From Parietichytrium sp. I65-24A (taxonomy: Eukaryota; Sar; Bigyra; Thraustochytrida; Thraustochytriidae): 64,000 nt of DNA. The stretch spans positions 1,945-65,944 of the forward strand of contig BLSF01000099.1 of the NCBI GenBank assembly GCA_012862575.1. Direction: 5' to 3'. The position numbers were made by a program, and so were the translations under genes. The notes beneath the pieces are model-generated. The model was not told the origin of the DNA. It was given only the letters and a program-made list of their open reading frames with translations, and ran no database searches. Within the stretch, counting starts at the first letter, position 1, and the number at the start of each line of letters is the position of its first letter. Of the stretch, positions 3-18,158 are shown piece after piece.

Positions 3-1250
3 GGCCCTGAGGGCGGAATCTCACTCGCGCGGGGTCTTGCAGCTAATTGTACACTGAAGCACCTTGACATTCATAGCAATAGAATTGAAGAAGCTGGCGC
101 TCGCGCCATCGCCGAGGCTCTGAAATCGAACAACACGCTCTTGAGTTTCGATTTGTCGAACAACGGGCTCAAAAACACCGGTTTTGCCTCAATAGCCGAG
201 GCTCTGAGGGTAAATTCTTCTCTTCGCGAACTTGTTCTTCAATCCAATGAGGTTGGGGCTGCAGGGATACAAGAGCTCTTGGATTCTCTGTCAGATAATA
301 GCACGCTGAAAAAACTAGATCTCTCGTGGGTGAAGGCAGATGTTTCCGGGTCCTCGAAACTGCTCGAGGGACTCTCAGCAAACCAATCGTTGACGGATCT
401 CAATCTTGCGAACGGGGCCCTCAGTGGATTTGGAACGGCCTCGCTCGTCGCGGTTCTAGAATCGAACAAAACGCTGATCTCCTTGAATATATCCCGAAAT
501 CGACTTGACTTGGGAGCGTTTAAACTGTTGTCGGAGATGCTCTCGGTAAACTCTACCCTAAAAACGCTCGTGTTAAACGACACAACAAAAGAGGAATCGG
601 ACGCGGAACACATCGCTGCTGCACTGACTGTAAACACGTCTTTAACTCACCTTGATTACGAGTCGAACTGTTTGTGGGCTTCCGGAACCATGGCGATAGC
701 CCAAATGCTCAGAACAAACTCTACACTTGAACAACTTAGCCTTTCCCAGAACCAAGCTGGAGAGGAGGGTGCACAGGCACTTGGTGAAGCCCTTGAAGTT
801 AACGTCGGCCTGAAGGAGTTGAACCTCGAATCACAACAACTGACTGCTCGTTTTGCTCAGCCCATAATTGAGGCTCTTAGGGTGAATGAGACACTAACAT
901 CTCTCGATCTTTCGTACTCTCCACTGGAAGATGATGGCGCAGTTGCGTTGGGAGCTGCTCTCGAGGTTAATTCCACTCTTCAGACTCTGGGCTTGTACTG
1001 TTGCGATATCAACGATTTAGGCGCCACCACACTCGCCCAAGCCCTAGAATCGAACAGGACACTGACGACTCTCGATTTGGGGTCGAACGGTTTTCAGGAG
1101 AAGTCTACAGTGACTGCATTTGCTCGTGCGCTACAAAAGAACTCGACGCTGTTGGATCTCTTTCTAGTGACATACTGGGGTCTCGATCATGACACGATGC
1201 TTGAGATAGAGCACAGATTAAAGTTGAATCTCACTTTATGTCGAATTTAA
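3..1250 (+). CDS. LRR protein, array copy A (5' end outside window)
   Basis: The frame is open from the left edge, so the N-terminus lies outside the window. It is built of about 28-residue repeats of the ribonuclease-inhibitor / NLRC3 type (N-x-T-L-x-x-L-x-L-x-x-N followed by a GA-rich helix). No kinase, NACHT, TIR or membrane segment is visible, so a soluble cytoplasmic recognition or scaffold protein is the natural guess; its partner is unknown. It aligns with copies C (4079-5884) and D (6788-8617) to the common C-terminal end LCRI/VCRI. Relative to C it lacks 96 bp (32 codons, one repeat) just after position 309. The missing block is bounded in C by the same hexamer CACGCT, as expected for unequal recombination between adjacent repeats. 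Family certain; function unknown. Confidence 0.85.
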   Translation, partial: GPEGGISLARGLAANCTLKHLDIHSNRIEEAGARAIAEALKSNNTLLSFDLSNNGLKNTGFASIAEALRVNSSLRELVLQSNEVGAAGIQELLDSLSDNSTLKKLDLSWVKADVSGSSKLLEGLSANQSLTDLNLANGALSGFGTASLVAVLESNKTLISLNISRNRLDLGAFKLLSEMLSVNSTLKTLVLNDTTKEESDAEHIAAALTVNTSLTHLDYESNCLWASGTMAIAQMLRTNSTLEQLSLSQNQAGEEGAQALGEALEVNVGLKELNLESQQLTARFAQPIIEALRVNETLTSLDLSYSPLEDDGAVALGAALEVNSTLQTLGLYCCDINDLGATTLAQALESNRTLTTLDLGSNGFQEKSTVTAFARALQKNSTLLDLFLVTYWGLDHDTMLEIEHRLKLNLTLCRI

Positions 1251-1765
1251 TTGGTGCATCAAGACCCAATTCTCAGTTTACAACCCCACATCTTGATCGA
1301 CCAAGAGACCGTTCATAGCTTGAAATTTCACGATCAGCACCATGAGTTTTGACAGTGAGTGATGTTTCCTTCTCAAAGCATTCAGTAAAAGTTGTCTGCC
1401 GAGAACGAACACGTGAGGAAACGTGAGGAAACGGTCGGCGCCTAATTAGCTACCACAATCACAAACCTCGCCCTTGGACTCGTTTCTATTCTTCTGCCCA
1501 TGATGCTGATCAAAACATCGTTCCTCTCAAGCTCATCGATTGGTGCTCTCGAGATCCTTCTTGTTTTGGTTCCACACAAATCGACTATCGACAAGTTGGT
1601 CGCAAAAGTTGTCGAGGGAACAGATGAATGATCACTCTGGTAGGATTTCCCGATTTTCCGCTACTTGTGCCTCTCGTACCAAACTTGGTTTGATCGACTA
1701 AAACTCTGGCCAAAATTTTTGCCACCCCACAGATTATAGTTGCGAACTTCGCGTTGTTCGATGGC
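1251..1765 (+). repeat. Duplicated 3' flank of LRR unit (copy A)
   Basis: The non-coding sequence after the stop of copy A is nearly identical to 5885-6345 after copy C, and its first ~300 bp to 8618-8915 after copy D. The duplicated unit therefore includes downstream DNA, not just the gene. Differences here are scattered single bases and small indels, in contrast to the clustered changes inside the coding repeats. Confidence 0.8.
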
Positions 1766-1786
1766 TTTGTCTTATATTACCACCCA

Positions 1787-2998
1787 GTTTCTGTAAAAAC
1801 ATACATGACCTTCCTCCTTACCACCCGGAAAATTGAGGCGTACACCAATTTGGGTACGAAGGGAAAGTCACTCCAAGATGACTTCCTTTGTAGAGGACTT
1901 GGACGGGAATGAAACGAAGCTTTTTTTGATGAATTTCCTTGCGTCTGAGAGAAGATACAGAGGTTTTTGTGATGTGGCGCATTGGGCGCCAAGATCTCGA
2001 GCGTGAACGCCAGGAGCCTGCCAAGGTTTGTAAAGACAACGGAAAAGAGCGAGGATGGTGGGATTGGCTTACAGACAACACAACTTGAGCCTGGGCGTTG
2101 TTGCAAGCGGAAGCGATGCGATTGTGGCGCCTGCCCTATTCATGAGTGTGAATGTGATGGTGTTGCAATTTCGAGCAAAGCCACACGGAAGCACGGCAGG
2201 CCCAAAGAAAGCAAAATCAAGGAGACTGTCGACGAGAAACGTGCCAAAGCTCGAGAAGCTAAACTGCTGAGCACAGCAGCTATCGAAAAGAACCGATTCA
2301 GGGGACGTCGAGAGGGCTTACGAAGAAGGCTTCGAAGGCGTTCGCGACAGATGCTGCTCAAAACTGCTCTCGTTATATAAGTGCAGACACGAAGGACATC
2401 CAGGAACTCTTTGGGTTCGGCGTGGCGGACAAGACTTTCAAGATGGGGCCGTAAAAATTGCTTCAGAATCTTTGAGAGAGATATCCTGGTCGGTACAATT
2501 TGCCGGGATAACTTTCGGGGACAAACCATGCAGGCATTGCAAGATCTCATCGACGAGCACAAGGAAGTCGAGGTTGCCGGCGCATAGAAAACCACGCTCA
2601 CCTCGTAACCTGCTCTTGAACTCTTTACTTGTCGCTTTCAGTTGTCATTGGGCGAAAGTGAAGAGGAAGTGACCGTCTCAAGGAAAACTCGTCTTGAAGT
2701 TCGACAACATGAAACAGGCTCTGCAAAAGACCAGAAAAAAAGCATTTCAGCATCTAAACAGTAAAAATTTCTATTGCGTTTGACTAGTTCCAGCCTCTGT
2801 AGCCACATTTCTCGGCGTGCGCGAACGAGAAACACTGCCCGACACCGGTTTTGGAGGTTTCTCGCTGAGCGGAATCTGCCAAAATTCTCAGACTATAGAT
2901 TTTCAAGGTTCCCAAATTCTTCGGTTCTAAAAAATCCCGGGTAAATCCCACGTGGTATATCCGGTACTGTTTTTACAAAAACCGTTTGTTACAGAAAC
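1787..2998. mobile_element. Unclassified 1.2-kb insertion-like segment with short inverted ends
   Basis: This segment is present after LRR copy A but absent from the matching flank of copy C, where homology resumes near 3007 (GAGTGTCCCTC). The ends carry a 10-bp inverted match: GTTTCTGTAA at 1787-1796 and TTACAGAAAC at 2989-2998. No clear target-site duplication is visible. It contains small ATG-started frames, including one at about 1982-2380 whose product is basic and cysteine-rich (CCKRKRCDCGAC) with an AT-hook-like KHGRPK, and another stretch near 2381-2587. I recognise no transposase or other known domain. It could be a degraded DNA transposon or simply sequence that copy C has lost. Confidence 0.35.
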
Positions 2999-3217
2999 CT
3001 TAAAAAGAGTGTCCCTCTTTTAGGTCAACAAAAATGAAAAGTGAGTCGCCTGGGTTGCCATTAATTAACTTTAAGCTTAGCTCGTGAAACTCGTGTAATC
3101 TCGTGAAGCTGAAAAGCCAAGATCATACTAGCAGCGAGATTAGAATTTTAATTAGGGTCAGGAGAACGAAATGACATTCTGACATTCTGAGAATTCTGAG
3201 TGACATTCTGAGTGAAC

Positions 3218-3394
3218 ATGTATGTAATATATGGACGGGAGGTGTGTGCGAAGCGGGTTGGAGGGCAGCGCGAAGAGCACAAGAAAGAGCGCAAGGGAGA
3301 GGAAGACAAAGAGGTAGAGGAGAAAGAGGGGCCGGTGCCCGTTCGAACGCTCCACAGCAGGCCATCCGTGTCTGCGTTGACTGCGGAACTATGA
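3218..3394 (+). promoter_or_regulatory. Upstream ORF overlapping the start of LRR fragment B
   Basis: A 58-codon ORF opens at an ATG (MYVIYGREVC...) and its TGA (3392-3394) overlaps the main ATG (3391) in the form ATGA. The same arrangement is kept in copy C. Such overlap is compatible with termination-reinitiation or uORF control of translation; that is inference. Confidence 0.35.
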
Positions 3395-3795
3395 ACATGA
3401 GAGGTGGGCAGCGGGAGCTGAGGGTTCGAGTGCTCTCCTGGAGTGAAAGGAGAGGCGTTTTGTATGAGTTGGCGAACAATCGCACGCTGGAGAAGCTGGA
3501 GATGGAAAGCAGCCGAGTGTCGTTCTCTTCTCTCTTCGAAGTACTTCAATCGAATCGCACACTGACCTCCTTGAGTTTATTGCATTGTTTGTCCGAAAGT
3601 ACGGGATTGTGTGGACTTGAGAATGTCCTGGCGACGAACACGACGTTAAGGGAACTCAGACTGGATCATACTTCAATAGACTATGATGCCGAGGCTCTCA
3701 ACTTGCTCGCAGATGCACTCAGGGTAAACGCCACTTTGCTCACGCTTGATTTGAAGTCATCCAGAGTTGAACTGCAAGGCGTATGTGCCATTGCA
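3391..3795 (+). pseudogene. LRR fragment, array copy B (ends at ambiguous base)
   Basis: It opens with ATG (MNMRGGQREL) and is nearly identical to the first 135 residues of copy C: an N-terminal cap and about four LRRs. It ends at GVCAIA immediately before the n at 3796, after which the sequence jumps back to leader DNA. There are a few amino-acid differences from C in the cap (RVRVLSWSE versus RVKVLSKSE). As written it cannot make a full solenoid; whether it is a broken gene or an assembly artefact cannot be told from the sequence. Confidence 0.7.
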
Positions 3796-3905
3796 NGGAA
3801 GCCAAGATCATACTAGCAGCGAGATTAGAATTTTAATTAGGGTCAGGAGATGACATTCTGACATTCTGAGAATTCTGTGTATTCTGAGTGACATTCTGAG
3901 TGAAC

Positions 3906-4082
3906 ATGTATGTAATATATGGACGGGAGGTGTGTGCGAAGCGGGTTGGAGGGCAGCGCGAAGAGCACAAGAAAGAGCGCAAGGGAGAGGAAGACAAAGA
4001 GGTAGAGGAGAAAGAGGGGCCGGTGCCCGTTCGAACGCTCCACAGCAGGCCATCCGTGTCTGCGTTGACTGCGGAACTATGA
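3906..4082 (+). promoter_or_regulatory. Upstream ORF overlapping the start of LRR copy C
   Basis: It is the same 58-codon uORF as before fragment B, again ending in ATGA so that its stop (4080-4082) overlaps the main ATG (4079). In copy D the corresponding uORF (from 6612) starts within CCGGTA repeats and stops early, at 6672-6674, well before the main ATG. Confidence 0.35.
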
Positions 4083-5884
4083 ACATCAGAGGTGGGCAGC
4101 GGGAGCTGAGGGTTAAGGTGCTCTCGAAGAGTGAAAGGAGAGGCGTTTTGTATGAGTTGGCGAACAATCGCACGCTGGAGAAGCTGGAGATGGAAAGCAG
4201 CCGAGTGTCGTTCTCTTCTCTCTTCGAAGTACTTCAATCGAATCGCACACTGACCTCCTTGAGTTTATTGCATTGTTTGTCCGAAAGTACGGGATTGTGT
4301 GGACTTGAGAATGTCCTGGCGACGAACACGACGTTAAGGGAACTCAGACTGGATCATACTTCAATAGACTATGATGCCGAGGCTCTCAACTTGCTCGCAG
4401 ATGCACTCAGGGTAAACGCCACTTTGCTCACGCTTGATTTGAAGTCATCCAGAGTTGAACTGCAAGGCGTATGTGCCATTGCAGATGCGCTTTTGGAGAA
4501 CAAGGCACTAACTGAGTTAGATCTCTCCTTCAATTCTTTTGGCCCTGAGGGCGGAATCTCACTCGCGCGGGGTCTTGCAGCTAATTGTACACTGAAGCAC
4601 CTTGACATTCGTAGCAATAGAATTGAAGAAGCTGGTGCTCGCGCCATCGCCGAGGCTCTGAAATCGAACAACACGCTCTTGAGCTTCGATTTGTCGTACA
4701 ACGAGCTCAAAAACACCGGTTTTGCCTCAATAGCCGAGGCTCTGAGGGTAAATTCGTCTCTTCGCGAACTTGGTCTTCAATCCAATGAGGTTGGGGCTGC
4801 AGGGATACAAGAGCTCTTGGATTCTCTGTCAGATAACAGCACGCTCACACGTCTCGACCTCTACCAGCTTCCTGCCGCGAGACCGGATCGTATCCCAGGA
4901 ACCATGTCACTTAGCCATGTGTTGAAAGTGAACACCACGCTGAAAAAACTAGATCTCTCATGGGTGAAGGCAGATGTTTTCGGATCCTCGAAACTACTCG
5001 AGGGACTCTCAGCAAACCAATCGTTGACGGATCTCAATCTTGCGAACGGGGCCCTTAGTGGATTTGGAATGTCGTCGCTCGTCGCGGTTCTAAAAGCGAA
5101 CAAAACGCTGATCTCCTTGAATATATCCCGAAATCTACTTGACTTGCGCGCGTTTAAACTGTTGTCGGAGATGCTCTCGGTAAATTCTACCCTAAAAAAG
5201 CTCGTGTTAAACGACACAACAAAAGATGAATCGGACGCGGAACACATCGCTGCTGCACTGACTGTAAACACATCTCTAACTCACCTTGATTACGAGTCGA
5301 ACCGATTGTGTGCTTCCGGAACCATGGCGATAGCCCAAATGCTCAGAACAAACTCTACACTTGAACAACTTAGCCTTTCCCAGAACCAAGCTGGAGAGGA
5401 GGGTGCACAGGCACTTGGTGAAGCCCTTGAAGTTAACGTCGGCCTGAAGGAGTTGAACCTCGATGCACATCAACTGACTACTCGTTTTGCTCAGCCCATA
5501 ATAGAGGCTCTTAGGGTGAATGAGACACTAACATCTCTCGATCTTTCGTACTCTCCACTGGAAGATGATGGCGCAGTTGCGTTGGGAGCTGCTCTCGAGG
5601 TTAATTCCACTCTTCAAAATCTCCGCCTGTATTGTTGCCGTATCAACGAGTTAGGCGCCACCACACTCGCCCAAGCCCTAGAATCGAACAGGACACTGAC
5701 GACTCTCGATTTGGGGTCGAACGGTTTTCAGGAGAAGTCTACAGTGACTGCATTTGCTCATGCGCTACAAAAGAACTCGACGCTGTTGAATCTCTTTCTA
5801 GTGACATCCTTGAGTCTCGATTATGACACGATGCGTGAGATAGAGCACAGATTAGATTTGAATCTCACTTTATGTCGAATTTAA
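4079..5884 (+). CDS. LRR protein, array copy C (full length, 601 aa)
   Basis: The start is the first in-frame ATG (MNIRGGQREL); the frame is open further upstream only from a GTG. After a short cap there are about 20 RI-type LRRs ending in LNLTLCRI. No transmembrane, signal or enzyme domain is seen. It differs from D by long identical runs (about 200 bp around 4484-4698 are unchanged) broken by dense clusters of replacement changes at LxLxxN. Examples are FDLSYNELKNTGF against FDFSYNGLNNTAF, and LRLYCCRINELG against LRLPRCHISDLG. Intracellular LRR solenoids of this type bind proteins through the concave strand surface, so these changes fall where binding specificity would be set. Role in recognition is inference. 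Confidence 0.9.
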   Translation: MNIRGGQRELRVKVLSKSERRGVLYELANNRTLEKLEMESSRVSFSSLFEVLQSNRTLTSLSLLHCLSESTGLCGLENVLATNTTLRELRLDHTSIDYDAEALNLLADALRVNATLLTLDLKSSRVELQGVCAIADALLENKALTELDLSFNSFGPEGGISLARGLAANCTLKHLDIRSNRIEEAGARAIAEALKSNNTLLSFDLSYNELKNTGFASIAEALRVNSSLRELGLQSNEVGAAGIQELLDSLSDNSTLTRLDLYQLPAARPDRIPGTMSLSHVLKVNTTLKKLDLSWVKADVFGSSKLLEGLSANQSLTDLNLANGALSGFGMSSLVAVLKANKTLISLNISRNLLDLRAFKLLSEMLSVNSTLKKLVLNDTTKDESDAEHIAAALTVNTSLTHLDYESNRLCASGTMAIAQMLRTNSTLEQLSLSQNQAGEEGAQALGEALEVNVGLKELNLDAHQLTTRFAQPIIEALRVNETLTSLDLSYSPLEDDGAVALGAALEVNSTLQNLRLYCCRINELGATTLAQALESNRTLTTLDLGSNGFQEKSTVTAFAHALQKNSTLLNLFLVTSLSLDYDTMREIEHRLDLNLTLCRI

Positions 5885-6345
5885 TTGGTGCATCAAGACC
5901 CAATTCTCAGTTTACAACCCCACATCTTGATCGACCAGAGACCGTTCATCGCTTGAAATTTCACGATCAGCACCATGAGTTTTGACAGTGAGTGATGTTT
6001 CCTTCTCAGAGCATTCAGTAAAAGTTGTCTGCCGAGAACGAACACGCGAGGAAACGTGAGGAAACGGTCGGCGCCTAATTAGCTACCACAATCACAAACC
6101 TCGCCCTTGGACTCTTTTCTATTCTTCTGCCCATGATACTGAAAAACATCGTTCCTCTCAAGCTCATCGATTGGTGCTCTCGAGATCCTTCTTGTTTTGG
6201 TTTCACACAAATCGACTATCGACAAGTTGGTCGCAAAAGTTGTCGAGGGAACAGATGAATGATCACTCTGGTAAGATTTCCCGATTTTCCGCTACTTGTG
6301 TCTCTCGTACCAAACTTGGTTTGATCGACTAAAACTCTGGCCTAA
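5885..6345 (+). repeat. Duplicated 3' flank of LRR unit (copy C)
   Basis: Homologous to 1251-1765 and 8618-8915. It ends near the GTTGTTCGATGGCTTT shared with copy A; beyond that, A carries the extra 1.2-kb segment while C continues to GAGAGTGTCCCTCTCTTAGG near 6413. The rest of the spacer to 6787 holds the leader of copy D, including a CCGGTA microsatellite at about 6616-6636. Confidence 0.8.
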
Positions 6346-6787
6346 ATTTTTGCCAAATTCCACAAGTTGTTCGATGGCTTTCCAAGGGTGCTTTATAGAA
6401 GCCTTTTTTCATTGAGAGTGTCCCTCTCTTAGGTCAACAAAAATATACAAAAATGACAAGGAAGTGAGTCGCCCGGGTTGCCATTAGCTCGTGAAAAGCT
6501 AAAACCCTCCAGACATCTCCAGACTCCAGACTCATGATCATACTAGCAGCGAGACTAGAATTTTAATTAAGGTCAGGAGAGCGAAATGTTAAACACATTC
6601 TGACATTCTGAATGTACCGGTACCGGTACCGGTACATGTATGTAATACATGGAGGGGAGGTGTGTGCCAAGTGAGGTGGAGGGCCGCGCGAAGAGCACAA
6701 GAAAGAGCGCAAGGGAGAGGGAGACAAAGAGAAAGAGGAGAAAGAGGTCCACAGCAGGCCATCCGTGTCTGCGTTGACTGCGGAACT

Positions 6788-8617
6788 ATGAACATGAGAG
6801 ATGGGCAGCGGGAGCTGAGGGTTGAAAGTCTCTCCTGGAGTGAATGCAGAGGCGTCTCGTATGAGTTGGCGACCAATCACACGCTGGAGAAGCTGGAGAT
6901 TCAAAGCAGCCAAGTGTCGTTCTCTTCTCTCTTCGAAGCACTTCAATCGAATCGCACACTGACCTCCTTGAGTTTGTGGCATTTTTTGTCCGAAAGTGCG
7001 GGATTGTGTGGACTTGAGAATGTCCTGGCGACGAACACGACGTTAAGGGAACTCAGACTGGCTCATTCTGCAAGAGGCTATGATGCCGAGGCTCTCAACT
7101 TGTTCGCAGATGCACTTAGGGTAAACGCGACTTTGCTCACGCTTGATTTGAAGTCATCCAGAGTTGGACTGCAAGGCGTGTGTGCCATTGCAGATGCGCT
7201 TTTGGAGAACAAGGCACTAACTGAGTTAGATCTCTCCTTCAATTCTTTTGGCCCTGAGGGCGGAATCTCACTCGCGCGGGGTCTTGCAGCTAATTGTACA
7301 CTGAAGCACCTTGACATTCGTAGCAATAGAATTGAAGAAGCTGGTGCTCGCGCCATCGCCGAGGCTCTGAAATCGAACAACACGCTCTTGAGCTTCGATT
7401 TTTCGTACAACGGGCTCAATAACACCGCTTTTGCCTCAATAGCCGAGGCTCTGAGGGTAAATTCGTCTCTTCGCGAACTTGATCTTCAATCCAATGTGGT
7501 TGGGGCTGCAGGGATACAAGAGCTCTTGGATTCTCTGTCAGATAACAGCACGCTCACACGTCTCGACCTCTGCCAGTTACCTCCATTGAGAGTCTACCAG
7601 TTTCCTGCAGCGAGAGCGGCTCGTATCCCAGGAACCATGTCACTTAGCCATGTGTTGAAAGTGAACACCACGCTGAAAAAACTAAATCTCTCATGGGTGC
7701 AGGCAGATATTTTCGGATCCTCGGAACTACTCGAGGGACTCTCAGCAAACCAATCGTTGACGGATCTCAATCTTGCGGTCAGGGCTCTTAGTGGATTTGG
7801 AATGGCCTCGCTCGTCGCGGTTCTAAAAGCGAACAAAACGCTGATCTCCTTGAATATATCCCAAAATCGACTTGACTTGCGCGCGTTTAAACTGTTGTCG
7901 GAGATGCTCTCGGTAAATTCTACCCTAAAAAAGCTCGTGTTAAACGACACATCAAAAAATGAATCGGACGCGGAACACATCGCTGCTGCACTGACTGTAA
8001 ACACATCTCTAACTCACCTTGATTACGAGTCGAACCGTTTGCGGGCTTCCGGAACCATGGCGATAGCCCAAATGCTCAGAACAAACTCTACACTTGAAAA
8101 ACTTAGCCTTCGCGAGAACCAAGCTGGAGAGGAGGGTGCAAATGCACTTGGTGAAGCCCTTGAAGTTAACGTCGGCCTGAAGGAGTTGAACCTCAATGCA
8201 AATCAACTGACTACTCGTTTTGCTCAGCCCATAATAGAGGCTCTTAGGGTGAATGAGACACTAACATCTCTCGATCTTTCGAACTCTCCACTGGAAGATG
8301 ATGGCGCAGTTGCGTTGGGAGCTGCTCTCGAGGTTAATTCCACTCTTCAAACTCTCCGTCTGCCCCGTTGCCATATCAGCGATTTAGGCGCCACCACACT
8401 CGCCCAAGCCCTAGAATCCAACAGGACACTGACGACTCTCGATTTGATGGCGAACGATTTTCGGGAGAAGTCTACAGTGACTGCATTTGCTCATGCGCTA
8501 CAAAAGAACTCGACGCTGTTGAATCTCTCTCTAGTGACATCCAGGAGGTTCAATTATGACACGCTCTGTGAGATAGAGCGCAGAGTAGAGTTGAATGGCA
8601 CTGTATGTCGAATTTAA
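6788..8617 (+). CDS. LRR protein, array copy D (full length, 609 aa)
   Basis: It starts at the ATG of MNMRDGQREL; an upstream extension exists only through GTG. The architecture matches copy C: cap, about 20 RI-type LRRs, terminal NGTVCRI. The 8-residue length difference comes from an in-frame insertion in one irregular loop (LDLCQLPPLRVYQFPAARA against LDLYQLPAARPDR). The leader lacks a 21-bp block present in B and C. The last repeat is the most divergent, with roughly ten replacements in 25 codons relative to C. Probably expressed from its own promoter, as each unit carries its own leader and 3' flank. Confidence 0.9.
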   Translation: MNMRDGQRELRVESLSWSECRGVSYELATNHTLEKLEIQSSQVSFSSLFEALQSNRTLTSLSLWHFLSESAGLCGLENVLATNTTLRELRLAHSARGYDAEALNLFADALRVNATLLTLDLKSSRVGLQGVCAIADALLENKALTELDLSFNSFGPEGGISLARGLAANCTLKHLDIRSNRIEEAGARAIAEALKSNNTLLSFDFSYNGLNNTAFASIAEALRVNSSLRELDLQSNVVGAAGIQELLDSLSDNSTLTRLDLCQLPPLRVYQFPAARAARIPGTMSLSHVLKVNTTLKKLNLSWVQADIFGSSELLEGLSANQSLTDLNLAVRALSGFGMASLVAVLKANKTLISLNISQNRLDLRAFKLLSEMLSVNSTLKKLVLNDTSKNESDAEHIAAALTVNTSLTHLDYESNRLRASGTMAIAQMLRTNSTLEKLSLRENQAGEEGANALGEALEVNVGLKELNLNANQLTTRFAQPIIEALRVNETLTSLDLSNSPLEDDGAVALGAALEVNSTLQTLRLPRCHISDLGATTLAQALESNRTLTTLDLMANDFREKSTVTAFAHALQKNSTLLNLSLVTSRRFNYDTLCEIERRVELNGTVCRI

Positions 8618-8915: not shown

Positions 8916-9195
8916 AAGCAAAGCACACTGCCATCAACATTGTTCACTCCACGTGCCTAATCTATCCACACCTTTCAGGTCTGTTGCCACGCGACGCCTT
9001 TCGGCCACTCTGCTTCTCCTATCTCCTATCTCCTATCTCCTGTCATTGACTGTGAATCTCTTTCTTTTCTGCCTCTGCAACTACTCCTGCTCCTGCTCCT
9101 GCTCCTGCGCCGCTCGGATGCTCCTGCGGCGCAGGCTGGTTTAACTCCATCCAGTCTCGGTGGGAACCGCGAGACTTTCTCGCACTTTCGCGGCG

Positions 9196-10851
9196 ATGAT
9201 CCGCGACGTGAAAGGCTCGGTGGCGGCAACGGCGGCGGCGGCGGCGGTGGTGGGCGTGATCGATTTGGACGCGTTCTACTGCCAAGTGGCGGCACGGGGT
9301 CTGGCAGACCACGACCCGAGCGCGCCCTTGGGGATCCAGCAAAAGTACCTCGTGGTGACGTGCAACTATGCCGCCAGGGCGCGGGGCGTGGGCAAGTTGA
9401 TGGGCACCGCAGAAGCCCTGAGAAAGTGCCCCGAGCTGAGGATTGTGGACGGGAGCGACTTGACACCATTCAGGAGGGCCAGCGAGAGTATTTTGCAAGT
9501 TTTAGATGGGTTTGGCGCGCCGGTGGAGCGGCTGGGAATGGACGAGGCGTTTATTGACCTGACGGAACTCGTGGATCGCCGCCAGGGGGCCGAGGCGCAA
9601 CTGCCCACGGAGCGAGTCAAGGTGGAAGGCGCATTGGTTGGGGAGGCCAGCGCGCAGGTGCTTGATCGGCTCGCGCTGGGTTCGCAGATTGTAAAAGAGA
9701 TCCGCGCCGCATTGCGCAAGGAGTTGGGCTTTGCCTGCTGCGGGGGCGTGTCCACGAGCAAGCTCGGAGCCAAGCTTGCTGCCGAAGTCAATAAGCCTGA
9801 CGGACAAGCAGTTATCACGCCTTCGGCTATCGAGGGCCACGTCAAAGACATGCCCGCTTTGCGGCTGCAAGGAGTCGGGCGAGGCGCACTCAAGCTGCTA
9901 TATCCTCTGTTTCTACACATGTTCCCTGAATGTCTGGAAGTTGGGCACTATACACATCTGCAGTGCAAACACATCCGCTTACTGCCTTTGAAGAGCATGG
10001 AAGAGGCTTTGCAGAATCCGCCTCTGGCCAAGTCCATTTACGACAAGGTTCGAGGCATAGATCACTCCCCAGTGCAACCATCCGGGCTTAATAAGACCTT
10101 GTCGCAGGAGGAGACCGCCCTGCCGCACCCCAACACGATGGAGTCCGCGATGGCTAGGCTACAAATTTTGTGTGACAGAGTTGCAGACATGGTTCAGGCA
10201 AGGAAGCGCAAGCACGGGGACCTCCCAACGCTCATTCGCGTCTCGGTCTCCGACAAACAAGGCAATGTCAAACTCGCTCGCTCACAGCGAGTGCACAAGT
10301 CTAGGCAGCGAACGGTCGACTCGCTGGCTTTTGAAAGCGGCAAGGCTCTTTTCCGTTGTGCGGAAGGGCTCCTGCGTTCCACGATATCTTCTGACAAACC
10401 GTTTTTGCTGTGTCGGATGAATCTCGCAGCGACAGAGTTTGGGAAGAGTGGTCTAGCAAAAAGTAGAGGTTTGCACTCCTTCTTCAAAGAACCAAGCCGC
10501 TCGCAGTCATCATCCGTCCTATGTGCTTCCGAAGACGACCGCAGTAGCAGGACTTCGCAATCGCCCGACAGGCCGCCTTCACTCAACTCCCCCAAAGGTC
10601 ACGGGGACGATCAAGCTGGGTCTGGCTCAAGTGGATTGATCGGGAAGAGGGGGCGCAATCCGACGGCACAAGAAATAGAGGCACTCGTGCAAGACGGTGT
10701 AGATCTGTCTGTTTTCGAGCAGCTTCCCAAAGAGATGCAAGACGAGATTCTTGCGAATGCCGAGCGCAAGCGAGAAGCCGCTGCGAAACGACCGCGCAAA
10801 GAAGTTCTCGAATCGTTTTTCTCGCCTAAACGGCCAGGAAACTGCTCTTGA
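9196..10851 (+). CDS. POLI: DNA polymerase iota (Y-family translesion polymerase)
   Basis: This 551-aa Y-family polymerase inserts nucleotides opposite damaged bases during replication bypass in the nucleus. The palm motif DLDAFY carries metal ligands D23 and D25; RLGMDEAFIDLTE carries D116 and E117. The stretch LGIQQKYLVVTCNYAAR with downstream GVGKLM is characteristic of iota rather than eta or kappa. Helix-hairpin and little-finger regions follow to about residue 410. The C-terminus has a ubiquitin-binding UBM motif (VFEQLPKEMQDEIL, about 505-519) and two PIP-box-like motifs (GLHSFF near 425, VLESFF near 537) for PCNA. The start is the first ATG (MIRDVKG); an upstream extension relies on GTG. 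It is convergent with NMD3, 180 bp away. Confidence 0.9.
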   Translation: MIRDVKGSVAATAAAAAVVGVIDLDAFYCQVAARGLADHDPSAPLGIQQKYLVVTCNYAARARGVGKLMGTAEALRKCPELRIVDGSDLTPFRRASESILQVLDGFGAPVERLGMDEAFIDLTELVDRRQGAEAQLPTERVKVEGALVGEASAQVLDRLALGSQIVKEIRAALRKELGFACCGGVSTSKLGAKLAAEVNKPDGQAVITPSAIEGHVKDMPALRLQGVGRGALKLLYPLFLHMFPECLEVGHYTHLQCKHIRLLPLKSMEEALQNPPLAKSIYDKVRGIDHSPVQPSGLNKTLSQEETALPHPNTMESAMARLQILCDRVADMVQARKRKHGDLPTLIRVSVSDKQGNVKLARSQRVHKSRQRTVDSLAFESGKALFRCAEGLLRSTISSDKPFLLCRMNLAATEFGKSGLAKSRGLHSFFKEPSRSQSSSVLCASEDDRSSRTSQSPDRPPSLNSPKGHGDDQAGSGSSGLIGKRGRNPTAQEIEALVQDGVDLSVFEQLPKEMQDEILANAERKREAAAKRPRKEVLESFFSPKRPGNCS

Positions 10852-11032: not shown

Positions 11033-12655
11033 TCAGTTTGCTCCAGAGCTCAAATGTGAATCCTCATCAACGACCTGAGCTGTATCGTCTGCGATTTCGC
11101 CGTCCTCGTCTTCAAACACCACCTCATCCCCATCTTCGAATACCACCTCATCGCCCTCTTCAAATGGTGTGCCCTCCCCATCCAGACCCTCCTCGCCGCC
11201 TTCTTCCACGGTTTGCAGGTCTGGGCCGTCCTCTTCCTCAGATACGTCAAAGTCTTCATTCTCCAGATCCATGCCCTCAAAGTCATCTGCAAGGCTAGAT
11301 TCCGCAATAGACGCGGAAGTCCCATCATCGGCCTGGTTCCGGTAGTCGCGACTCTGAGTTCCCTTACCCTTTTTGGTCTTCTTCTTCTTCTTCTTCTTTT
11401 CAGCGCCTTTTGCGCCACCTCTGCCCTTCCCACTTTTGCTCTCATTTACTTTTTGAACGAGCACAATCGAGGGCAGTTCCCTTCCTCGTAAAGGAGCAAG
11501 AACATCGTCTCCGTACACTGAGTTCGTAAAGTCATACCCCAAAACGAGGTCGCCCGGTGCGAGGTGAATACCAATATGAGACACCACTAAATAGCGGTCG
11601 TCATTTACACCGAGGTCCACACTACGAGCGACTTCCACTTCGGCAAGCGTAGTTTCGGAGGAAAAATCCAACGGCTGGACGTCGAGAACAGCAAATTCAA
11701 CCATCTCGCGTGAGGACGCAAGTGCAGTAAATGCATTAGGCCAAAACTTGGACTCTGAGAGCTTGGCGCGTTCAAGGGTAGCCGGGTCCACGAGGTTAAC
11801 GTTGCGTGTAATACTTTCGCACAAGACTGCGCCACACTTACCCCCAAACAACGTCATCTGCAACTTGAGGGGCAAGATTATAAAGTCGTTTTTGCAAACG
11901 GGAACCACCTCCACATTGATGGTGTGTCTGTAGTGGCTCTTGTTGTTTCGCACATCTGTCCCCTGAAGCTTCTTGCTTTCCTTGCGGCGGGCAGGAACGC
12001 AGCTCAAGACGTGCTCGCTAAACTTTGTTGCGGTGTTCTTGTTTGAAAAGTAAAAGTCAATACCGGTGGCGACCGGGACGATGTTCATAGCGGTCTGAGC
12101 AGCACCGTCGCGCACGAGGCGGTTCTCAAGATTCAGCAGGGTTCGCTTGTACTTGACTTGCTGCCTCACCTGCACGATTGTGGTCCAGTTCTGGTCCGTC
12201 GTCTCCTTCACGCACTCGTCGCAGAGTCTATTCTTGATGACAAATTCAATCGTCATGCCTTGCCGCACCATTGCCTGGTTGAACACCTCCTTCTCCACCA
12301 CCACCTTGATTTTAAGCCTCTTGCTGTGCGGCTCGGTCCAGATCCAGTTCGCGTCCACAAATTTTGCGCCGCCTTTGATGCTCTTTCCCTTTCCTCTCCC
12401 CAGACCATGTACGGACTTTAGACACAGAGCCAAGAGCTCCGCCGACTCGGGCTCGCATCGCAGCCATCGCGCTTCTGCTGCAGGCTTGATCTTACCGCAC
12501 GTGGAGCAGCTCCAGAGCACTTGTGACTTGGAGATGCCTTCTGTCACATCCACGCGGTCCTTGAGGCAGTTCAGGCACATGTTCGCGTCGTTCGCCTTCA
12601 TAGGCACGCCGCACATGCAGCACGCTATCGTACTCAGCTCCGCCATAGCGGCCAT
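11033..12655 (-). CDS. NMD3: 60S ribosomal export protein NMD3
   Basis: NMD3 is the adaptor that links the pre-60S ribosomal subunit to the exportin CRM1. About 540 aa, close to the family length of around 500. The N-terminal zinc-binding region shows four Cys pairs (CCMCG, CLNC, CSTCGK, CDEC). The central region contains family signatures such as FYFSNKNTATKF and the HTINVEVVPVCKNDFIILP block. The tail has a lysine run (EKKKKKKKTKKGKG, nuclear localisation) and a very acidic stretch (EGDEVVFEDGDEVVFEDED) where export signals lie in other species. Start at MAAMAELST; MAELST three codons later is possible. The 5' leader is strongly purine-rich in the gene direction. Confidence 0.95.
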   Translation of the reverse strand: MAAMAELSTIACCMCGVPMKANDANMCLNCLKDRVDVTEGISKSQVLWSCSTCGKIKPAAEARWLRCEPESAELLALCLKSVHGLGRGKGKSIKGGAKFVDANWIWTEPHSKRLKIKVVVEKEVFNQAMVRQGMTIEFVIKNRLCDECVKETTDQNWTTIVQVRQQVKYKRTLLNLENRLVRDGAAQTAMNIVPVATGIDFYFSNKNTATKFSEHVLSCVPARRKESKKLQGTDVRNNKSHYRHTINVEVVPVCKNDFIILPLKLQMTLFGGKCGAVLCESITRNVNLVDPATLERAKLSESKFWPNAFTALASSREMVEFAVLDVQPLDFSSETTLAEVEVARSVDLGVNDDRYLVVSHIGIHLAPGDLVLGYDFTNSVYGDDVLAPLRGRELPSIVLVQKVNESKSGKGRGGAKGAEKKKKKKKTKKGKGTQSRDYRNQADDGTSASIAESSLADDFEGMDLENEDFDVSEEEDGPDLQTVEEGGEEGLDGEGTPFEEGDEVVFEDGDEVVFEDEDGEIADDTAQVVDEDSHLSSGAN

Positions 12656-13597
12656 TCTCCCTCTCACTCTCTCCTTTCCTTTCGCTCACTCAATCGCTCA
12701 CTCACTCTCCAATTCAGCGGAGGACGGCTAATTCACAGCGGCGAGGCCGACACAAAGTCTCGTCACACCCTGTCTGTTTCCGCGGATCGTCCTTGTGCTT
12801 GTCCTTCGGGAGATGCTTCCACCATTCCCGCCACCTACGACTAGCTAGCCAGCCTAGCCAGCCACTCCCCTTCTTGGACGTCTTGGACGTCTTGGACGTA
12901 GAGAAAACTCCCGCACTGGTTGCAAATAACATTCCAACAACTTCCAACAGCACTGGAAGTCTCAAGTGACAGAGTCACCAGGTCATTCACTGTTTGTCAG
13001 TGCTGTTTTGCAGTCGTTGAACAGGCCAACGTTGGACTTGATTGGAATTTGCTCGAAAGTGAGTTGTTGTTCAGTCCAACGTTGAACTTGAATGGAATTT
13101 GCTCGAGTGAGTTATTGTTCTGGGCAATGTTGAGAGCTTGATTGAAATTTGCTCGAAAGTGAGTTATTGTTCGAAAATGCAATGCAGACGCGTTGACTGG
13201 GGAATTGGAATTGTGTTTTCTGGGAAAGGAGTGCTCGTGGGGGTACGTTTGTTCTGTCACGGTGATGTTCTCGCGACTTGGGGATTTAGCGTACCGGTGG
13301 TAGATTGTTCAATCGACGAGCGAGTGTTGGTTCTGGCCCAGAAATAGGCGGCAGAGGACAAAGAAATAGACTCGAACCTGAGTTTTATCGGTTATGGGCT
13401 AATAGTCGCAGAGAGGTGAGGACGACAAAACAAAGAAAGGGGAACTTGATTTCATTCCACCCCATGACAAGAAAGCAAACAAAGAATCGAAACGATGGAT
13501 GCTCGATTGCGAGAATTATGTGGCTATAACTTCTATGATACCTACGAAGATGAGTCGCAGAGCTGCATCGAGTTCACGTCCTTAGACGGGTCTTGAA
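12656..13597. other. Intergenic region with 3-copy tandem repeat
   Basis: It lies between the NMD3 start and the kinesin stop. A repeat of about 50-60 bp, with core TTGGAATTTGCTCGAAAGTG and variants, occurs three times at about 13016-13180. A short TCTTGGACG triplication lies at about 12872-12899. No gene can be supported. Confidence 0.6.
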
Positions 13598-15790
13598 TTA
13601 CTGTCCAGGAGAAGGGGGCTTGGGCCTGCGCTTGCGGAACCCGAACGTTGGAGTGAGGCTCAATCGCGATTTGGACTTGGGTTGGGCAGGAGACGGCGGC
13701 AAGGATCTTGTGGATGCAGTCTGGTTAAACCTGAAGAAGCGAAGTGAGCGCGGACTTGATGGCGGTTGACTTGGCGCGTCCAAACCAAGAACTTTGATCG
13801 CCTTGTCGAGGCTCGCACCGTGTTTCTGAGCAGAGGCGAGTCGAGCTTCGCTCTCTTTCCAGCTTTCCTCCACCTCTCGAAGCATATCTGTCTTCAAAAC
13901 AAGTTCTGATTCGACAGCTTGGAGCTTGGCGGTAATCTGCTCTTTCTCGTCGAAAACGTTTGAGAGCTTGCTTCCCACAGACTCGAGATATTCTTGCCTT
14001 TGCACCAAGCTCCTCTGCAGCATAGATTTCTCAAAGACGGCATCAGTAAGATCCTCCTTGTACTTGGCAGTTGTTTCCTTCATTCGCTGTCGCTCCAACT
14101 CGAGCTCCAGCTCCAGACGCTTCCGTCGCTCAGATTCGGCGGCGAGCCGGGCTTCTGTCTCCTTGATTTTATCTTCATACCTAGACAGCCTCTCATTCTG
14201 AAAGTCTCTGATACTATCAATTTCCTCCTGGATAGAGTCTCGTGGCTTTGAGGGCTTTGGAGTTGGCTGCGATGTCATGAATTGCGAGTCCATTAATAGT
14301 GAGTCGATTTCGTTTGCGAGGTTATCGATGGAGACTTCTTCGTCGGTCAAGACGCCATGCGTATTCTCTGGCCACAGCGCTATCTCGGACAGCCTGCGGA
14401 CTCGATCTTTTGAGGTGTTGCTCTCACTTCCGCTTCTGTTTAACTCTTCCAGGACCATTTCGTTTGATTGATTGAGCGTGTCTTCAATTTCCTGAGACAA
14501 AGACGCGACGGTGAGCTTCTCTAGAGCCTCGTTGTCCAAGAAGCCACTGCTGTGAAAGCTTGGGACGCGAGGAATCTCGGTGATGCTTTTCTCTAGGACA
14601 CTAAGGCTGAGGCGCTTTCTTTGCGGGACTTTAAAGCTCCTAGGCACGTCAGTTTCCACAAATCGACATTTCTCTGCGAATCGAAGTGTTTCCAAGGTCT
14701 CTGCCCTCTTTTCCGCCGCCACCGAAATATTAAAAACAATCGACAAGAGCGAGTTTCCAGTGAGCGAATCTCCGAGAACTCTGGTAAGTTTGGATTCCCT
14801 GAATGCAAAGTGTCGCTGCGAAGGAGTGTCAGGAAGACTCCGATCACAACTGGACGCCATGCCCTCCAATACACGTCGGAGAGTGAGCAGCGACTTGTTA
14901 ATAGTAGGCGACTCTTTCACGTCAGGAGAGCTTCGATGGCCCTCTGCGCCAGCAAGGTCAACAAACGTAAGGTGCGCGCCACATTTGGTTGTGCTGGAGC
15001 CTTTCGGCTGGACGTGAAACCTGCAGATTGCATGCGACTTGCGCCCTTTTCTACTTTCGTCTGTCACATTTTCGAGCGCCTGTTTGCGAAACTCCAAGCC
15101 CTTTTTCAACAGCATCTCCACCTTTTCAATGGACGAGCATGGTTCTTGCGCGAGACCTTGTATCACAGTGTTGCCATGCTGATCCTCCATCATATTCAGC
15201 CCCTCGTGCCCTGAGATACAATCCCTCACTCGCTCATTACATATGTCAAAAAAGCTAAAATAGACCATGGCCTCTTCGCGATTCTCATCACTTGGCCGAG
15301 GTAGGGCTTCGCCTTTATTGCATTCTTCCTCGATTGGGTTGGCGATGCTATTTCCGTTGTTCCCTTTCTTCGGCGTTCCTGCACGATGATCGCTTAGCTG
15401 ACGGAAAAGAGACCGAGCAGATTCCAATATTATGCCATCCGAAAGCTCATTCCCTCGGCCTTCGAAACTTTCGTGTCGCTGGTCGCTATCTTCGCATGCA
15501 AATCTTCCAAACATTGTGTACGATTTACCGCTTTGAGGCTGCCCGTAGGTCAGAATCGTACCGTGCTCGCCAAGGACAACTCTTTGAACGGCCCTGAGCG
15601 CTGTTGCCTGAAAGACTGCCTTAGATCCTCTGTCGCCATCGATCGCGCTGTCAAACAGCCACCTTGCGCCATCATACTTGTCACTTTTACCACTTTCGTC
15701 GTGCAAGGATCCACTCTCCTCGTCCACGGTCCAGCACGCGTCTTGACCTTCCGCGCAAGGTCTTATGCACGCAGCCACTTTAATCTTCAT
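13598..15790 (-). CDS. Kinesin-like motor protein
   Basis: A 730-aa plus-end-type kinesin with an N-terminal motor (about residues 1-380) that hydrolyses ATP to move on microtubules. The P-loop is GQPQSGKSYTM (83-93), switch II is DLAGAE (278-283) and FRESKLTRVLGDSL is the conserved a4/L12 region. Switch I is unusual: the canonical SSRSH is replaced by GRKSH (249-253). The RxRP motif near the N-terminus reads CIRP. A long acidic, Ser-rich neck is followed by coiled coil (about 520-660) for dimerisation and a basic Pro/Ser tail. Subfamily not assigned; kinesin-7-like features are weak. Start is the first ATG (MKIKVAACIR); upstream extension only via TTG. Confidence 0.9.
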   Translation of the reverse strand: MKIKVAACIRPCAEGQDACWTVDEESGSLHDESGKSDKYDGARWLFDSAIDGDRGSKAVFQATALRAVQRVVLGEHGTILTYGQPQSGKSYTMFGRFACEDSDQRHESFEGRGNELSDGIILESARSLFRQLSDHRAGTPKKGNNGNSIANPIEEECNKGEALPRPSDENREEAMVYFSFFDICNERVRDCISGHEGLNMMEDQHGNTVIQGLAQEPCSSIEKVEMLLKKGLEFRKQALENVTDESRKGRKSHAICRFHVQPKGSSTTKCGAHLTFVDLAGAEGHRSSPDVKESPTINKSLLTLRRVLEGMASSCDRSLPDTPSQRHFAFRESKLTRVLGDSLTGNSLLSIVFNISVAAEKRAETLETLRFAEKCRFVETDVPRSFKVPQRKRLSLSVLEKSITEIPRVPSFHSSGFLDNEALEKLTVASLSQEIEDTLNQSNEMVLEELNRSGSESNTSKDRVRRLSEIALWPENTHGVLTDEEVSIDNLANEIDSLLMDSQFMTSQPTPKPSKPRDSIQEEIDSIRDFQNERLSRYEDKIKETEARLAAESERRKRLELELELERQRMKETTAKYKEDLTDAVFEKSMLQRSLVQRQEYLESVGSKLSNVFDEKEQITAKLQAVESELVLKTDMLREVEESWKESEARLASAQKHGASLDKAIKVLGLDAPSQPPSSPRSLRFFRFNQTASTRSLPPSPAQPKSKSRLSLTPTFGFRKRRPKPPSPGQ

Positions 15791-18158
15791 CTTCCTGAGG
15801 CTCTTTCGTCCTTTCTCAGCGCCGTGTCGGGGTTGGTTTTGACACGCTTGCCGGAGGAGAGAAACTCGTCTCAGCAGCAAGGATCAAACAATATAGGCAG
15901 ATAATTCATACACATGCGCTCATTAGCGACTTCACTTGTTCGCTTCTTCGCTCCTCTTCGCGCTGCGTCGGCGTCCAAAAGTCCGAGTTTTGTCCGCGGA
16001 AGGCCTCTTGCAGACTCTTTGGACTCAACCTTTTGCTTTGCTTGTTCCGGAGGTGTACCATCCCTGATTAACTTCAATCAATCAATGATTGCGGTCAGTA
16101 GTAGCAGTACCAGCTCGTGGACTCTTCTCTTCTCCCATGGGGACTCTCGGTCTCCTCTGTCTTTGTGCTGTGCTCCAAACTATTCCAAACTCATGTGACG
16201 AGGGCCAATTAGTGAACCGAATGGCCTGTGCAGTGCCCTTATCCTCCATTCCATTCATTTATTAACTCGGTTACTCATCGTCAATGTATATATATTTTGA
16301 TCGTTCCTTCACCTTTTCTACCTTTTCTCCTTTTTCTCCAACGATGAGGATGAGATCGCCGGTGGACAAAATGACCGTTTCAAGAAAGAACAACGAAGTA
16401 GACGCCTAGGTTCATGAGTGTTCATGATCAGAGAATGACACGCGAACAACGAAGTAGACGCCCAGGTTTGCAACCGGTACCTTTACTGAGCACTGAGTAT
16501 CACTGTGGTACACTCGTGCACGGCCTTGGCGCCAGTGCGCTGGCTGCAGGCTGTCTATGCCAGAGCCCTGTGTCAATGCGGGCTGTCGTAGAACAGCGAC
16601 AGGGCCATCTATCAGGCTGCTCTGTTTCGCGCAGCCTGCTGGCGTCGGCGCAGACTGCGAACGGCTTGCCCTTTGTGATTGTTGCAAATCTTTCAGAGTT
16701 TGGAATAATTTAAAATCTGGAACTTGAACGTTCATCGCATTTTCGTGGCAAAACCAAATCTTAAATGAATTAGAACTCAGAATTAATTATTCCGAATTGT
16801 GTGTTCGTGTCAAAAGCGAAATAATTATCATGTTAGGCTATGGAAGCTGTTCTGTGTTGGCTGTGTATGTTGATGTTGAGTGCTTTTCCTTCTGGACAAC
16901 TTCGCCGTGGCAAACACAAACAACTTGAAGCAGAAGGAGGTAGAGAGAAACGCTTCACAACCCCGGTTCTTCAGCCAGAAGTCGTGGGTCACCCGCCTAA
17001 TTCGACATATATGTCTACAGATTGTGATAAACAGGACATATACGCCTGACCAGGTTTAAGGAGGTTTGTGAAGTGTCGACAGACGAATGAACAATCGAAG
17101 CTTCTGTACAACTTCTAGTGGCAAATAGGCTTCCAATTGCATCATCATTATAGTATACAACAAAAGTTTAGGTTATATTGCGTAATCAAGTGGTGACGTG
17201 CAGCAGCACACAGTCTGTGCAGCCACTCCCTGGCGACCCTGATCTTATAGTCCTAACCAGCACAAACGTTAGCAGTCACCTGAAACTAGTCGAGCAAAGT
17301 TCTGCTACTCCTCCAAGTCGCCGCTCATTGCGGTTGTGCTAGCCCTAACTCCCATTCACAACACATAGGTCAACCTATCTTTCTCGCTAGCAAGTGCCAT
17401 CACTGACGCTTAGTCTTTCCGCTAATCCCTGAGTAGCCTGGACCCAAAGTGAAATAATTGAAATTAGTTGACACGACCAGATCCGTAGCCTGAGTACCCG
17501 GCTCTAGCATAAACGATAGTAGTCAGCACATTGGCTACCTTAGCCAGACTCCAACTCGCAGCGTAATCCGCGCTACCCGTATTACAAACCCATCTCTACT
17601 AGCCAAGCGCTAACCTCTCCGTATCACACCTTAACCACATCTACCCTCTCCAGTAGGAGCCGAGTCTACAGAAGCTTCTAGCGATGGTAGCCAAGAAGCC
17701 TATGTTCGCGCTGAGGGAAGAGGACTAGTCCAACGAGCTTGGATTACGCGTAGTGAGAGAGAGAGAGATAAGAGATAAGAGTACAGAGAGTACAGAGACA
17801 GACGGATCAGATTCAAGACAGGGAGAGAGAGATAGAGAGAGATAGACAGAGAGAGCGAGCTACGGGAGAGCAGACCAGAGACAGTGTCGGAGCAGACAGG
17901 GAAGCAGCGAGCAGAAGGGCAAAGATACGAAGATACAAAGTAAGTTGCGAGAGCTGGAGCGGTCTGCGAGTAGTGCTCGCGTGTTGCGGTTCGTGTAGGT
18001 GTGTGTGTGTGTGTCTGATTCGTCGGACGCCAGGGCTTGATTAGATTAAGATTAGATGAGATTTCAGAGTAGTTGGTGTGGCGAAGGGTTTCGGGTTGGA
18101 GTTGACAGGGCGGTGAAAGTGGACTGACGTGGTTTGGTGGTGCAGCGATTCGAGGAAG
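15791..18158. other. Intergenic region between kinesin and ETFA
   Basis: No convincing gene. It holds a 25-bp direct repeat (GAACAACGAAGTAGACGCC, at 16387 and 16444), an AT-rich stretch at about 16720-16830, a segment at about 17200-17660 with many CTAG/TAGCC words, a (GA)-rich tract at 17752-17875 and a (GT)n run at 17999-18014. The last two probably belong to the ETFA leader. TGGTGCAG just before the ETFA start looks like a 3' splice site, so a 5' UTR intron is possible. Confidence 0.4.

Follow-up and report, generated by a model that had tools for sequence, protein, structure and literature searches.

The first 8.6 kb of a 64,000-nucleotide (nt) stretch of DNA from the thraustochytrid Parietichytrium sp. 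I65-24A (positions 1945-65944 of contig BLSF01000099.1, in a 42.5-Mb genome assembly of 172 contigs; the whole stretch is called the window hereafter) is a tandem array of leucine-rich repeat (LRR) genes, here named copies A, B, C and D. Our analysis suggested that this is probably a young array, which has been shaped by tandem duplication, by recombination between the copies and by positive selection along the exposed edge of a predicted horseshoe-shaped protein, with recognition as its presumed function. An earlier note on this DNA, made from the letters alone, had described A, C and D as copies almost identical over long stretches; their near-identity and the motif variants it quoted were confirmed, their frames are open, and a fourth, partial copy, B, is also present. 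All four copies lie on the forward strand. Copy A (3-1250) is represented by its 3' part only, an open frame of 415 codons, and its 5' end is lost in the 1,944 N at the start of the scaffold; copy B (3244-3795) is a partial 5' fragment which stops at a one-base N (3796). Copies C (4079-5884) and D (6788-8617), the latter being the fastest-changing copy, encode 601 and 609 residues from the first in-frame ATG, respectively. The frames are intact in A, C and D, and in C and D they extend a further 75 and 65 codons upstream of that ATG, where the true start may lie, unless it is located in an extra upstream exon.

The replacements between copies are concentrated on one part of the repeat. Between C and D, 91 of the 643 aligned codons differ and 77 of the 91 change the residue, in comparison to 31 of 47 changed codons between A and C and 58 of 75 between A and D, in agreement with the statement of the earlier note that nearly all of the clustered changes alter the amino acid. 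The repeat register (positions 0-27) was set by the consensus of the repeats, and in this register replacements between C and D were found at positions 9, 10, 11, 12 and 14 in 7, 6, 5, 10 and 8 of 20 repeats, respectively, and at every other position in 0 to 3 of 19 to 21. These five positions, a set which was chosen on the C-D data itself, hold 36 replacements in 100 sites in comparison to 29 in 472 elsewhere (odds ratio 8.6, Fisher p = 8e-14), and the same set applied to A and C gave 13 of 71 in comparison to 18 of 344 (p = 6e-4). They correspond to the end of the strand and the loop which follows it (xxN.L.x) more than to strand positions 5 and 7, at which 2 of 21 and 3 of 20 C-D sites are replaced; the changes are indeed clustered within the repeat, as had been noticed, though at positions 9-12 and 14 more than at these strand positions. 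When placed on the structure model of D described below, the C-D differences affect 35 of 116 positions in loops after strands, 12 of 86 in strands, 15 of 243 in helices and 3 of 127 in loops before strands.

A codon model (MG94-type, F3x4, three-branch star, custom code, recombination between copies ignored) was fitted to A, C and D with a face mask of repeat positions 5, 7, 9, 10 and 12, which was fixed beforehand and follows the exposed positions known from work on plant nucleotide-binding LRR (NLR) proteins. The ratio of nonsynonymous to synonymous substitution rates (dN/dS) was 4.08 for the face and 0.87 for the remaining positions, which is the kind of replacement excess that the earlier note had anticipated, and two rates described the data better than one (twice the log-likelihood difference, 2dlnL, 41.3; p = 1.3e-10). 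When the mask was slid through all 28 registers, the predicted register showed both the highest dN/dS and the largest likelihood-ratio statistic, the runner-up being shift 2 (36.3), which has positions 7, 9 and 12 in common with it and also takes in 11 and 14. If constraint were simply relaxed, with the exposed edge drifting freely and the scaffold conserved, the face ratio would be expected to stay near 1; exposed loops are commonly less constrained, and the A-C pair alone is compatible with such drift, yet a face value of 1 was rejected for the three copies (2dlnL 27.4, p = 1.7e-7; none of 200 simulations under this value reached the observed statistic, the largest giving 7.3) and again for C-D alone (face dN/dS 6.5, p = 8.6e-9), so that drift is disfavoured and seems rather improbable. 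The dN/dS above 1 at exposed repeat positions, by which diversifying LRR genes are recognized, was found here for the three copies together and was not significant for A-C alone, and in general positive selection on the repeat face is strongly supported.

There are several points which weigh against this interpretation and should be considered along with it. For A-C alone the face dN/dS was 1.81, and 1 was not excluded (p = 0.10). The signal comes largely from one lineage, D, which has a very low silent count: in the part common to A, C and D, the ratio of replacement to silent singletons is 46:3 for D, 23:16 for A and 10:2 for C. A model with a separate rate for D gave 18 on its face and a value that is also high, 3.6, in the rest of its repeats, the corresponding values of the other branches being 1.8 and 0.44 (p = 6e-4). 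The whole-gene Nei-Gojobori ratios for C-D (1.57, p 0.09) and A-D (1.18, p 0.61) were not significantly greater than 1, and those for A-C, B-C and B-D were 0.58 (p 0.07), 0.60 (p 0.65) and 1.02 (p 1.0), respectively; the only significant excess by this method was found for codons 185-658 of C-D (dN 0.058 in comparison to dS 0.023, p 0.009). The comparison also rests on just three copies, which recombine with each other, from one genome with gaps.

The earlier note had left open whether selection or a targeted diversification process was responsible. Under the latter, a process would mutate or template the codons of the repeat edge and selection would be secondary, and the very dense local replacements in D could be taken in its favour, as could the 17 adjacent changes in D in comparison to a random mean of 6.1 (the top of 2000 random sets also being 17), an excess which could also be explained by repeated selection on the same codons or by multi-nucleotide mutation. 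The changes unique to D fall at codon positions 1, 2 and 3 in 28, 13 and 8 cases. Hypermutation of the type caused by diversity-generating retroelements (DGR) is expected to produce adenine-biased changes, and no base preference was seen in the D-unique changes (A 12/314, C 10/298, G 15/284, T 12/297), which argues against both DGR-type base bias and targeting in general. A template or donor was also searched for in the array and 29 overlapping LRR loci (107,861 bases, a part of the genome). Although 12-mers carrying the D base were matched in the array or other LRR loci at 25 of 109 difference positions, the other LRR loci showed no donor excess (14 of 109 for D bases, in comparison to 20 of 109 for C bases and 339 of 1820 for identical positions), so that neither the donor segments suggested earlier nor a DGR-type template came to light in this search space.

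Silent changes provide a further test of targeting. At the observed edge, silent singletons were not raised (3 of 48 sites in comparison to 18 of 268), and equal targeting of silent and replacement sites gave P = 0.0012, a value to be read with the edge having been chosen on the same data. With the prior mask the silent changes were 5 of 47 in comparison to 16 of 269, a rate ratio of 1.8 in the direction of targeting, with P = 0.08 under equal targeting and 0.19 under none, values which hardly separate the two. The 46:3 ratio of D would in any case require either selection or a targeting of particular codon positions. No sign of targeted mutation was found in the base spectrum, the donors or the silent changes, the silent test being of limited power, and targeted diversification is regarded as highly unlikely; of the two processes proposed earlier, selection is borne out by the codon model (p = 1.7e-7) and targeting is opposed by the flat base spectrum and the lack of donor excess.

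Recombination between the copies was supported by the disagreement of silent coding sites with the flanks. Among silent coding singletons A is the outlier (16 for A in comparison to 3 for D), whereas among the 11 singleton substitutions within the initial 255 alignment columns of the 3' flank (D 6, A 3, C 2) it is D; this contrast was significant (Fisher p = 0.013), and with a longer flank, which includes a badly aligned tail, p was 3e-4. The 3' flank of C (5885-6190, forward strand) is nearer to that of A than to that of D. The best-supported breakpoint in C was placed at 5621-5626 (forward strand), upstream of which the silent sites are D-like and downstream of which the sites and the 3' flank are A-like; 5 of 1000 permutations were equally good, and the interval is broad. 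Copy A lacks exactly one 32-residue repeat (C 4841-4936), with an in-frame joint at the conserved N-x-T-L turn, and the 24 nt which D has in excess of C (7571-7594, forward strand) are inserted, also in frame, in the same repeat. The coordinates of the breakpoint and the missing repeat were obtained by arithmetic from the alignment. C and D also share an identical stretch of 221 nt (C 4472-4692, D 7181-7401, forward strand), which confirms that a long identical run exists, but the positions previously given for it (4484-4698 and 7191-7405) are two bases out of register and yield 155 mismatches in 215. In indel-rich alignments of the 5' flanks, D differs from C at 23 of 123 aligned bases and from B at 54 of 236, so that the flanks do contain single-base differences, as had been described, together with indels. 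These results support inter-copy recombination in the form of segment exchange and repeat loss, rather than the shuffling of patches, which refines the gene conversion or repeat shuffling proposed before.

The relation of B to C raises the question of whether some copies are alleles placed side by side, that is, haplotypes of a heterozygous genome. B and C differ at 7 of 552 bases; between B 3391-3795 and C 4079-4490, 4 of 184 codons differ, all within alignment codons 52-66, after which the two are identical over 355 nt up to the N at 3796 which they abut. To judge from these sequences, B and C have the appearance of two alleles, of the overlapping ends of joined contigs or of copies that underwent conversion recently, and it is quite likely that they represent alleles of one gene. 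Copy A, moreover, is cut by a gap. As an account of the whole array, however, an assembly artefact is unlikely, for no gap separates C from D, position 3796 being the sole N in the window, and the two differ in flanks and silent histories; alleles, too, would need selection to give the observed replacement pattern.

With regard to the protein class, the only Pfam domains in A, C and D were LRR_6 and LRR_1. The repeats are mostly 28 residues long, about 20 per full gene and all in one open frame, and they follow the ribonuclease-inhibitor (RI) type, with LxxLxLxxNxLxxxG plus a helix and a predicted horseshoe. The structure model of D, built on an alignment of four sequences, had a predicted local distance difference test score (pLDDT) of 78 and a predicted template modelling score (pTM) of 0.74, and in a fold search with this model ribonuclease inhibitors ranked first, with 16-25% identity among the 50 matches listed. 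A further point against a recognition protein is that axonemal LRR proteins are among the best sequence matches: the top two in the PDB were doublet-microtubule LRR proteins of trypanosomatids (9y6s_4e, E 9.6e-42; 9e5c_0t, E 5.2e-37), followed by NLRP and ribonuclease-inhibitor chains. It could be supposed from this that the copies encode an axonemal or cytoskeletal component adapting to an intracellular partner. Such scores, however, are those of long repeat proteins with a common consensus, the fold search puts ribonuclease inhibitors first, and because a conserved structural part would not be expected to undergo diversifying selection along its edge, a structural role is considered most improbable. 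In D, no 19-residue segment exceeded 1.55 on the Kyte-Doolittle scale, and, as judged by eye, the N-terminus which begins at the first Met does not resemble a signal peptide; for these reasons the protein seems more likely to be a sensor, inhibitor or decoy in the cytosol than a receptor on the cell surface, and an unseen upstream exon could alter that.

No other recent amplification of this LRR family in the genome was found by protein, DNA and blastn searches. In three protein searches, matches outside the array showed at most 47% identity among the candidates scored (the best 68 of 151, 71 of 202 and 69 of 154, so that a lower-ranked pair could escape), a DNA search matched the contig of the array only, and blastn among 30 LRR loci revealed no other close gene pair; the further close copies which the earlier note suggested looking for did not appear among these candidates. 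An LRR_6 family search gave at least 39 matches (150 of 372 candidates scored). For the other RI-type LRR loci of the genome (L001-L030), 8 of the 20 best-matching contigs carry an LRR match within 20 kb of a contig end (binomial p = 0.009 versus 0.16, counted by hand with a threshold set after looking), which may mean that these loci are subtelomeric; the start of contig C1 showed no telomere repeat.

A description of this array was not found among the titles and abstract openings retrieved from open-licence papers. The array shares with ribonuclease inhibitor and with the LRR domains of NLRP and NOD proteins the repeat class and the predicted fold; no NACHT domain was found in it, and its proteins are not known to bind RNase. 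In plant NLR (NBS-LRR) clusters, genes are duplicated in tandem, the copies exchange sequence and selection acts on the exposed LxxLxLxx positions, and the array displays the same mode of evolution without NB-ARC and with another repeat type. Among stramenopiles, the report on brown-algal LRR-ROCO genes describes repeat shuffling and, as determined with PAML, positive selection at four sites of each repeat, located on the concave face (PMC11378527); these genes differ in having 23-residue repeats, each its own 72-bp exon, and ROC-COR GTPase domains, in comparison to the 28-residue RI-type repeats, single open frame and LRR-only content found here. In the unicellular Tetrahymena, tandem LRR gene expansion with young copies has been described, with unequal crossing over proposed, and these are thousands of genes with 90-bp exons and introns under mostly purifying Ka/Ks (PMC6564038), in comparison to three to four copies under positive selection in the present array. 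By Pfam, A, C and D contain neither NACHT nor NB-ARC, notwithstanding a possible upstream exon, nor ROC-COR, and their repeats share one open frame rather than occupying one exon each. Because these defining domains are absent, the array was classed as a diversifying LRR array in the broad sense, neither an NLR nor a ROCO gene.

The spacer between A and B contains a dispersed element (1781-2980, no strand assigned), which lies outside the LRR genes. Its ends carry inverted repeats that match imperfectly (24 nt at 79%, 13 nt at 92%), and it recurs as a 97% copy on contig C19 and as weaker pieces elsewhere in the assembly; based on its dispersed copies and terminal inverted repeats, it was rejected as a component of the LRR system. 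Downstream of the array, long open frames encode a Y-family polymerase (IMS, 9160-10851), NMD3 (11033-12667), a kinesin (13598-15880) and a malic enzyme (46071-47522), and the length of these frames suggests that the genome is intron-poor. An open reading frame on the minus strand (29086-30570) carries both FTO domains, catalytic and C-terminal (Pfam); the FTO family has a patchy distribution.

Taken together, we propose that the copies arise by tandem duplication of an LRR-only gene encoding a ribonuclease-inhibitor-type horseshoe, that ectopic recombination swaps segments and whole repeats between them, and that diversifying selection fixes residue changes at the strand ends and following loops, the leucines, the N-x-(T/S)-L turn and the helices being almost unchanged. 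Of these points, the structure of the array, the recombination and the selection at these positions are shown by the sequences, and the fold class is a prediction. LRR faces contact partners in ribonuclease inhibitor and in plant receptors, and because they do so there and in brown-algal receptors, the exposed edge would be expected to contact a changing protein partner. The pattern of selection is the one familiar from immune and self/non-self receptors of other organisms. A role in recognition can reasonably be inferred from the predicted fold and the selection, in which case the proteins would form a small repertoire of recognition molecules, inhibitors or decoys directed at a parasite or a virus, or would serve to tell self from non-self. 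It is a more tentative thought, which we hold to be doubtful, that a single-locus LRR-only array, in which the silent backbone is reset by exchange and the surface residues are pushed apart, could form an immune or allorecognition system of a minimal kind, which has no effector part and stands apart from NLR and ROCO receptors. The analysis provides statistical evidence, from one genome, for an arms-race-like predicted binding surface in a little-studied eukaryote. Owing to the LRR-only simplicity of these proteins, a ligand could be sought directly, with the copies of the array serving as natural variants, and if the partner proved to be a virus or another microbe, innate recognition in a microbial eukaryote would become directly testable.

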